A stretch of 64,000 nucleotides of DNA, taken from positions 5,535,328 through 5,599,327 of the forward strand of contig CM067065.1 in assembly GCA_033980235.1 (NCBI GenBank). Reading direction: 5' to 3'. Both the position numbers and the translations under genes were made by a program. The notes under the pieces are model-generated. The model saw nothing but the letters and a program-made list of their open reading frames with translations, did no database searches and was not told where the DNA came from. The DNA comes from Diadema setosum. Lineage: Eukaryota > Echinodermata > Echinoidea > Diadematoida > Diadematidae. Positions 10,985-11,653 of this stretch are shown here, one piece after another (the stretch's first letter is position 1; every line of letters starts with the position of its first letter).

Positions 10985-11653
10985 ATGGCATCTTCCAAAA
11001 AGGGGGATTTGTACAGTCCCTTCAACGATTATTTCGAGCTGAGTAAGCTGGTATCAACGGGGGAGAAGAAGAGGGAGTCCGTGGACCAAGAGACGGGCGA
11101 CCAGCTCTTTGATTTTGAACAGGTGCGAGGCTCGTTCAATAGCTACCTGGGGTTAGACGAAGGGGAAGCGACAGTGACGAAAAAGAGTGGATCCCAGGAC
11201 CTAGGGACGAGATACCAGTATCCGGCCTTACAGAAGGACGACGATGGAGCTGGGTGTCTGTCAACTGGTAGCCGTTGGCTGAGCAACGAGGGGATTCTAC
11301 CAGACATCATCGCTCTACGAGGACGAGATGGAAGTGATGGACCACTCAGCAGATCAGTGTCTTGGTGCGTTTTCTGCAAAAACAATGGTGAAAGTTTGCA
11401 GGTCTACGGAAGCCATGCGCTGAAGTCCATAGACGGCAAAACTACCCGCCCTGTACTTCGGGCATACAGATGCCCGATTTGTAGCGCCACCGGGGACGAG
11501 GCTCACACCATTAAGTACTGTCCGTTATCAAGGAAGAAAAAGCTGCCTGGGTCAGCAGAGCCAGGATCTACCAGTAACATCAGCACAGCGACGCTGTATT
11601 TTAAAACCCCACGGAATGCTGCCGGACGGCTGAGGAGCCGCAATACCAGGTAG
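10985..11653 (+). CDS. Nanos-type protein carried by element 1
   Basis: 222 residues from ATG 10,985; an in-frame ATG at 10,946 would add 13 residues. The C-terminal half has the Nanos double zinc finger. Finger 1 is C128-C131-H144 with Arg155 where family members have the fourth Cys. Finger 2 is complete: C163-C166-H174-C179. The tract leading into finger 2 and the HTIKYCPL ending match Nanos closely. Residues 10-23 contain FNDYFELSKLV, resembling the NOT1-interacting motif at the N terminus of animal Nanos; FNSYLGL at 51-57 looks like a second copy. Nanos proteins bind RNA with Pumilio and recruit the CCR4-NOT deadenylase to silence messages, mainly in germ cells. The gene lies 115 bases after pol and well before the 3' LTR, so it is part of the retroelement. 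Substitution of one zinc ligand may weaken RNA binding. Its role in the element is inferred. Confidence 0.85.
   Translation: MASSKKGDLYSPFNDYFELSKLVSTGEKKRESVDQETGDQLFDFEQVRGSFNSYLGLDEGEATVTKKSGSQDLGTRYQYPALQKDDDGAGCLSTGSRWLSNEGILPDIIALRGRDGSDGPLSRSVSWCVFCKNNGESLQVYGSHALKSIDGKTTRPVLRAYRCPICSATGDEAHTIKYCPLSRKKKLPGSAEPGSTSNISTATLYFKTPRNAAGRLRSRNTR

Follow-up and report, generated by a model that had tools for sequence, protein, structure and literature searches.

The window analysed here is a 64,000-nucleotide stretch of the genome of the sea urchin Diadema setosum (C7:5535328-5599327), and it contains a Ty3/Gypsy (Metaviridae) long terminal repeat (LTR) retrotransposon that encodes a Nanos-type protein. 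The element spans positions 4351-14399 of the window on the + strand, on which the parts of the element given below also lie. A gag-pol gene in one open frame of 1758 amino acids (aa; 5593..10869) is followed by the Nanos-type gene (10985..11653, 222 aa) and then by a second accessory open reading frame (ORF; 11810..12388) that encodes two C2H2 fingers and is 192 aa long in this copy. The initial annotation had placed a Nanos gene between pol and the 3' LTR, an order that holds, and had overlooked the C2H2 ORF. The 5' LTR (4351..5430, 1080 bp; ends TGTAGCGAA...TTCGCCACA) and the 3' LTR (13318..14399, 1082 bp) differ at 11 of 1078 aligned positions (Kimura two-parameter distance 0.0103, ~1.0% apart). 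The domains of gag-pol are, in order, a CCHC knuckle, protease (PR, residues 506-596), reverse transcriptase (RT, 838-998), ribonuclease H (RH, 1061-1189) and integrase (IN, 1310-1480), and the top match in a protein database search is 48% identical. Paired LTRs and the PR-RT-RH-IN order are shared with Ty3/Gypsy elements in general. Another copy (L004) has GTAT on each side, a putative 4-bp target duplication; the window copy sits in AT repeats, where a target duplication is unreadable. The element differs in its two accessory genes past pol, one of them Nanos, and has no Pfam-recognised envelope gene in the place where errantiviruses and retroviruses carry env: no envelope profile matched either post-pol ORF, the matches being to zf-nanos and, weakly, to C2H2-type profiles instead.

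The 222-aa protein matches Pfam zf-nanos (PF05741) at residues 128-180 (E=2.1e-22, with a score of 79.6 bits where the cut-off is 27), and the corresponding protein of copy L004 does so at E=5.2e-24. By sequence it also matches solved structures of fly and zebrafish Nanos (3alr, the zebrafish protein, 3.9e-17; 5kl1, 7.1e-15), and the AlphaFold model of the whole protein has a mean predicted local distance difference test score (pLDDT) of 36.9. The double CCHC zinc finger is encoded at 11366..11524. The pattern of Cys and His ligands reported in the initial annotation is present as a double finger and incomplete in the window copy, in which Arg takes the place of the fourth ligand of finger 1 (C155R); position 155 is Cys in the seven other near copies described below, all of which have the eight ligands complete (two with a stop elsewhere), and in the database relatives P0002-P0005. 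Likewise, the N-terminal motif SPFNDYFxLSKLV (11015..11053), a candidate CCR4-NOT recruiting motif, resembles the host's HPFTDYFGLTELV and bears in the window copy a private substitution, G18E; it is kept in most of the seven others. The family gene is thus represented in the window by a slightly damaged copy. The C-terminal tail of the element protein, KTPRNAAGRLRS, resembles host RTPRTSTGRRRS and, with both termini host-like, the capture seemingly involved a full-length nanos coding sequence, beyond the domain alone.

Genome searches covered 885,718,524 bases in 96 contigs; the search for nanos scored every one of its 18 first-look candidates and lists 16 matches. Eight near copies of the element Nanos (the window copy and L002 to L008; 88-100% protein identity) are located on five chromosome-size contigs: C5, C6 (three), C7 (two), C11 and C12. 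The initial annotation had reasoned that a gene absent from other full-length copies, or broken in all of them, would be a one-off passenger; instead, the order pol tail, nanos, C2H2 ORF is common to all eight near copies (L007 is without part of the pol tail), and the nanos frame is open in six, with a single TGA in L006 and a single TAG in L007. Across the 669 nt of nanos there are zero indels in seven comparisons with the window copy, and the 156-nt spacer 3' of the gene has indels in three of the seven; the 115-nt spacer 5' of it has none by BLAST, and MAFFT puts a 3-nt gap there in L002. Five copies have an identified LTR at either end, those besides the window copy being L003 (0 differences in 1002 positions), L004 (3/1005), L006 (15/1071) and L007 (15/738), and the small numbers of differences point to recent insertion of some copies. 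The stretches fetched for L002, L005 and L008 each yielded a single LTR, and that of an older copy, L009, yielded none. That a host nanos gene came to be flanked by LTRs by chance, or that the arrangement is an assembly artefact, is next to inconceivable and was rejected, given eight separate copies with the same order, five of them with both LTRs, and close relatives of the element Nanos in other Diadema records.

The 5' flank is readable in six copies, and four of these (window, L003, L006, L007) sit in AT repeats, which suggests an insertion preference for such targets. Divergence at synonymous sites (dS) between the window copy and L008 is uneven (pol 0.25, C2H2 0.16, nanos 0.05), and the two copies share 98% identity in the 3' noncoding part, a combination that suggests recombination between subfamilies. 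The C2H2 ORF is 243 aa in L003, L004 and L008, and in L006 the same 243 aa are preceded by an in-frame N-terminal extension to give 281 aa; shorter forms occur in L005 (218 aa), L002 (150 aa) and L007 (70 aa), and a 1-nt difference cuts the window copy's ORF to 192 aa. A protein search with this ORF returned 242 candidates, none of them at E<=0.001.

Among the best 120 of 136 protein-database homologues of the element Nanos, D. setosum and D. antillarum supply the top matches, and the records of the latter contain 222-aa relatives. The D. antillarum and other database relatives are presumably located in elements too. In Diadema records they are annotated either as 'nanos homolog 3-like' (P0002) or as 'uncharacterized protein' (P0003-P0005), so nanos gene counts there may include element genes. 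A scan of IMG/VR with the Nanos protein produced seven stretches that fitted a pattern, none of which was confirmed.

The distribution of the gene was then set against the phylogeny of pol. When the genome was searched with the integrase end of pol, 106 of 1738 candidates were scored, and the best 30 loci entered the tree, which was midpoint-rooted for drawing only. Nanos is present in all seven scored loci with integrase identity of at least 91%, and the locus of L009, also in the nanos list, has 84% identity over a part of the integrase. The seven Nanos loci form one clade (support 96/97). The modern copies therefore have a single origin, and separate capture in each of them is rejected; separate capture for the older relics described below is unlikely. 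The Nanos clade is joined at 100/100 by three loci (L067-L069, at C20:30.57M, C16:3.09M and C7:24.58M; integrase identity 71%, 78% and 68%, respectively) in which a second retropepsin-like ORF follows pol in the place of Nanos and is itself followed by a homologous C2H2 ORF. This second retropepsin-like ORF is 181 aa long in two of the loci and broken in L069, is 37-39% identical to the element protease, and in the C20 locus matches the Pfam aspartyl protease profile at 5.1e-9; the C2H2 ORF of these loci is up to 249 aa long and 44-45% identical to that of the window element. C2H2-only loci branch next (98/97): in three loci at 55% integrase identity (C15, C22, C2), pol is directly followed by a 308-aa C2H2-like ORF that is 30% identical to the window C2H2 ORF over 69 residues. 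None of the eight sister stretches fetched past pol has a nanos match. One of the stretches, L074, has a 134-aa ORF with C2H2-like spacing and no significant match to the window C2H2 ORF, and in L073 neither a second retropepsin nor a C2H2-like ORF was seen past pol. The simplest reading of these arrangements is that C2H2 is the old accessory gene, that Nanos was inserted a single time, upstream of C2H2 and after pol, and that a sister lineage filled this slot with a different gene.

The source of the captured gene is echinoid. A tree was built from the finger and tail of 30 sequences, chosen from the best 120 homologues and from the loci, with the stop-containing L006 and L007 excluded. It unites the modern copies and the relics with echinoid host Nanos in one clade (97/92), so that the comparison with animal Nanos proposed in the initial annotation places the element protein with that of sea urchins; the modern copies and relics (89/64) have as neighbours the host Nanos of Diadema and Lytechinus (98/96). 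Behind the near copies lie L009, in which nanos is 79% and C2H2 83% identical at the DNA level, and the relics L012 and L013/L016, 70-74% identical over the matched parts, each with remains of both nanos and C2H2. The N-terminal part of relic L013 is 44% identical to the modern element protein over 77 residues, and linker segments further on are 38% identical to the host protein over 89, as expected of a form closer to the capture. Further fragments of the element C2H2 gene (L033 and L034, at C18:3.58M and 3.59M) lie beside relic L012.

The D. setosum host nanos itself (L011, which is P0006, 98.6%) has an uninterrupted coding frame of 210 aa. Intronlessness was accordingly rejected as proof of capture by an RNA route, absent introns being uninformative on this point. 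With this gene the element Nanos shares the double zinc finger, with 43 of 55 residues equal, a DYFGL-type N-terminal motif and a similar C-terminal tail; it differs in being mobile and multicopy and in its rewritten linker. A decayed nanos-like sequence elsewhere (L015, C4:16837131), which over 78 residues has 78% identity with host nanos and has no C2H2 match, is probably a pseudogene of the host gene.

On balance, we lean towards the reading that a sea-urchin Ty3/Gypsy lineage captured an echinoid nanos, placed it upstream of an older C2H2 gene and directly after pol, and has retained it as a gene of its own, which would be expressed from a spliced mRNA and would repress host messages in germ cells. 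The capture proposed in the initial annotation is supported by the presence of the gene in all eight near copies, by its grouping with echinoid Nanos and by the conservation of its fingers at depth. Between a modern copy and relic L013, dS in the zinc fingers is 2.5, nonsynonymous divergence (dN) is 0.16 and 41 of 55 residues are equal; for relic L012 the values are 1.1, 0.16 and 39 of 55; and against host nanos synonymous sites are saturated with 43 of 55 residues equal. The fingers are thus strongly conserved, with 71-78% of residues kept at dS from 1.1 to saturation. It is highly improbable that the gene is a functionless host gene merely copied by the element as a passenger, a reading already largely contradicted. 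In favour of a passenger, plant LTR elements are known to transduce genes, which are described as occurring in one or few copies (PMC7264820), and the linker and N-terminus appear unconstrained in young copies; against it, nanos is found in all near copies and, as remains, in old relics, has zero indels among the near copies, and has conserved finger residues while its synonymous sites are near or at saturation.

Among the eight near copies, in counts that leave out L009, L012 and L013, the constraint on the fingers is moderate. The fingers have 8 synonymous and 8 nonsynonymous changes (pN/pS, the ratio of nonsynonymous to synonymous changes per site, 0.29), the N-terminal 25 codons 1 and 7 (1.95) and the C-terminus 5 and 9 (0.63), and the nonsynonymous share is 8/16 in the fingers versus 45/56 in the rest (Fisher P=0.024). 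A comparison of D. antillarum P0003 with five D. setosum copies agrees, with 0-2 of 58 finger residues differing and 17-22 of 164 elsewhere (P=0.008-0.048). In pairwise estimates, for which gapped and stop codons were skipped and ranges cover the printed pairs, dN/dS is 0.10-0.42 in the pol tail, 0.09-0.41 in C2H2 and, for whole nanos against the old copy L009, 0.45-0.50.

Several observations weigh against this reading of a retained, functional element gene. The linker has 5 synonymous and 29 nonsynonymous changes among the eight copies (pN/pS 1.73), and dN/dS for whole nanos between the two young subfamilies is 0.8-1.1; once transition bias is allowed for, the finger deficit alone among the eight copies has P=0.063. 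The D. antillarum protein P0004 has lost a zinc ligand (H174L) and has no excess finger conservation (P=0.17-0.41), and C155R in the window copy is likewise a ligand loss, in a single copy. The branch joining modern copies and relics has modest support (89/64); the capture may predate the split of the Diadema and Lytechinus urchins, but fast evolution can push such a branch outward. The C2H2 tree, built without a usable outgroup and without pieces of at most 90 residues, contains the relics, the second-protease loci and the modern copies as three groups, so that the second-protease lineage may equally well have lost Nanos or have lacked it from the start. Finally, the whole element contains two Pumilio-type sites where 0.56 are expected, a number reached in 11% of shuffles, and the site at 12784 is present in one of seven aligned sequences, the window's own.

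By these rates of change, Nanos is a constrained finger domain with a free or adapting linker, under constraint below that of pol, and the purifying selection that the initial annotation had asked about acts on the zinc-finger domain and does not extend to the linker, whose nonsynonymous changes somewhat exceed the neutral expectation (29/34, P=0.030 with transition bias). Such a fast linker would suit antagonism, as would finger residues that are unlike those of host Nanos at 12 of 55 positions, if the element protein were a decoy or dominant negative that occupies Pumilio or the targets of host Nanos and so frees germ-cell messages. We consider this unlikely, since the seven near copies besides the window's all retain the eight ligands, and most also the N-terminal motif, which is a better match for an active repressor.

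Somewhat more plausible, though still doubtful, is an action of the element Nanos on the element's own RNA, by timing its translation or by steering it to germ plasm or particles. A precedent is the accessory protein CERV of the Caenorhabditis elegans element Cer1, made from a spliced mRNA and described as needed for export of the genomic RNA (PMC10309623). The 3' noncoding part and the 3' LTR together contain both Pumilio-type sites, against an expectation of 0.375, and the one at 13101 occurs in six of seven aligned copies. The excess is weak, however, being reached in 5% of shuffles of the 3' part as well as at the rate given above for the whole element, and neither site is constant: that at 12784 is confined to the window copy, and L007 is without that at 13101.

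Candidate signals for expression of the accessory genes were found in the LTR and ahead of both start codons. A consensus-like 5' splice donor, GCAG|GTGAGT, lies inside the LTR (5120..5129) and, in a comparison with 12 other LTR stretches, two of which (L029 and L030) did not align at the donor, is identical in 10 of 10 aligned sequences (11 with the window's). Just 5' of the nanos ATG are splice-acceptor-like AG sites (10959..10976), whose positions persist in the old copy L009, and just 5' of the C2H2 ATG is a splice-acceptor-like CAG (11800..11805) that is kept in all eight near copies and L009 despite gain and loss of flanking bases. The putative junctions would be at 5123/5124 for the donor, at 10965, 10971 or 10976 for nanos and at 11805 for the C2H2 ORF. 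Putative donor and acceptors agree with separate spliced messages like that of retroviral env.

Under the favoured reading, that of a captured repressor of host messages, nanos mRNA would be spliced from the LTR donor to an acceptor just 5' of the nanos ATG, as for retroviral env, and the fingers of the translated protein would bind RNA jointly with host Pumilio; fly Nanos is described as clamping Pumilio onto RNA (PMC4995099). The N-terminal motif may recruit CCR4-NOT, by analogy with mouse NANOS2, whose first 10 residues are reported as required for CNOT1 binding (PMC3308992). By analogy with these proteins, the element Nanos most likely represses messages in germ cells. Only insertions that land in germ cells are inherited, and repression of host messages could help these cells to stay quiescent or to survive; sea-urchin Nanos2 is described as essential for primordial germ-cell quiescence (PMC12673967).

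The remaining features of the window copy are those of reverse transcription and of its surroundings. A putative primer binding site, TGGTGTCAGG (5433..5450), directly follows the 5' LTR and looks like the 3' end of tRNA-Leu; 26-bp tandem repeats (5446..5580) occupy the 5' leader right after it. A polypurine-tract-like run (13301..13314), the presumed tract, precedes the 3' LTR. Past the 3' LTR, an extra 52 nt (14400..14451) consist of primer-site sequence and then a second LTR end, an arrangement that looks as if reverse transcription had overrun U5 and then jumped back. A TRIM-like ORF (RING and B-box, 660 aa) adjoins the element at 15140-17122.

Captured ORFs 3' of pol have been reviewed (PMC6431247), and several systems share features with the element described here. 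Plant aORF LTR elements carry extra coding sequence beyond gag-pol, which frequently occupies this slot and is present in the majority of copies (PMC7264820), and Burro of planarians has extra coding capacity of this kind with TRAF- and BCL-2-like domains (PMC6431247); in contrast to both, the element Nanos derives from a known host germline translational repressor. Cer1 likewise combines an LTR retrotransposon with an accessory protein, and its CERV is produced from spliced germ-cell mRNA, splicing being predicted for the element Nanos; CERV is, however, described as a novel protein (PMC10309623), as opposed to a captured germline regulator. Retroviral onc genes are cellular genes aboard a retroelement (PMC6431247), whereas the element Nanos has been retained over the long term within an endogenous lineage. 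In the literature searched for nanos and retrotransposons, no Nanos-carrying retrotransposon was found, in line with the statement in the initial annotation that none was known, and none of the listed titles and abstract beginnings on captured or accessory genes names Nanos. Accessory genes in this slot were thus already known; what appears to be new is an element lineage that has captured and retained a germline repressor.

A broader interpretation, which we put forward tentatively, is that a retrotransposon has long carried a germline translational repressor with which it keeps primordial germ cells quiescent and alive or silences host defence messages, and that the slot past pol is a general cargo bay. 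Transposons persist only via the germ line, and an element with its own conserved germ-cell regulator bears on how they do so: the question of direct manipulation of germ-cell fate, as opposed to mere evasion of silencing, becomes testable in an animal with accessible embryos. If this interpretation is true, the element would steer germ-cell physiology to its own advantage, and its sister lineages would load the same slot with other genes.
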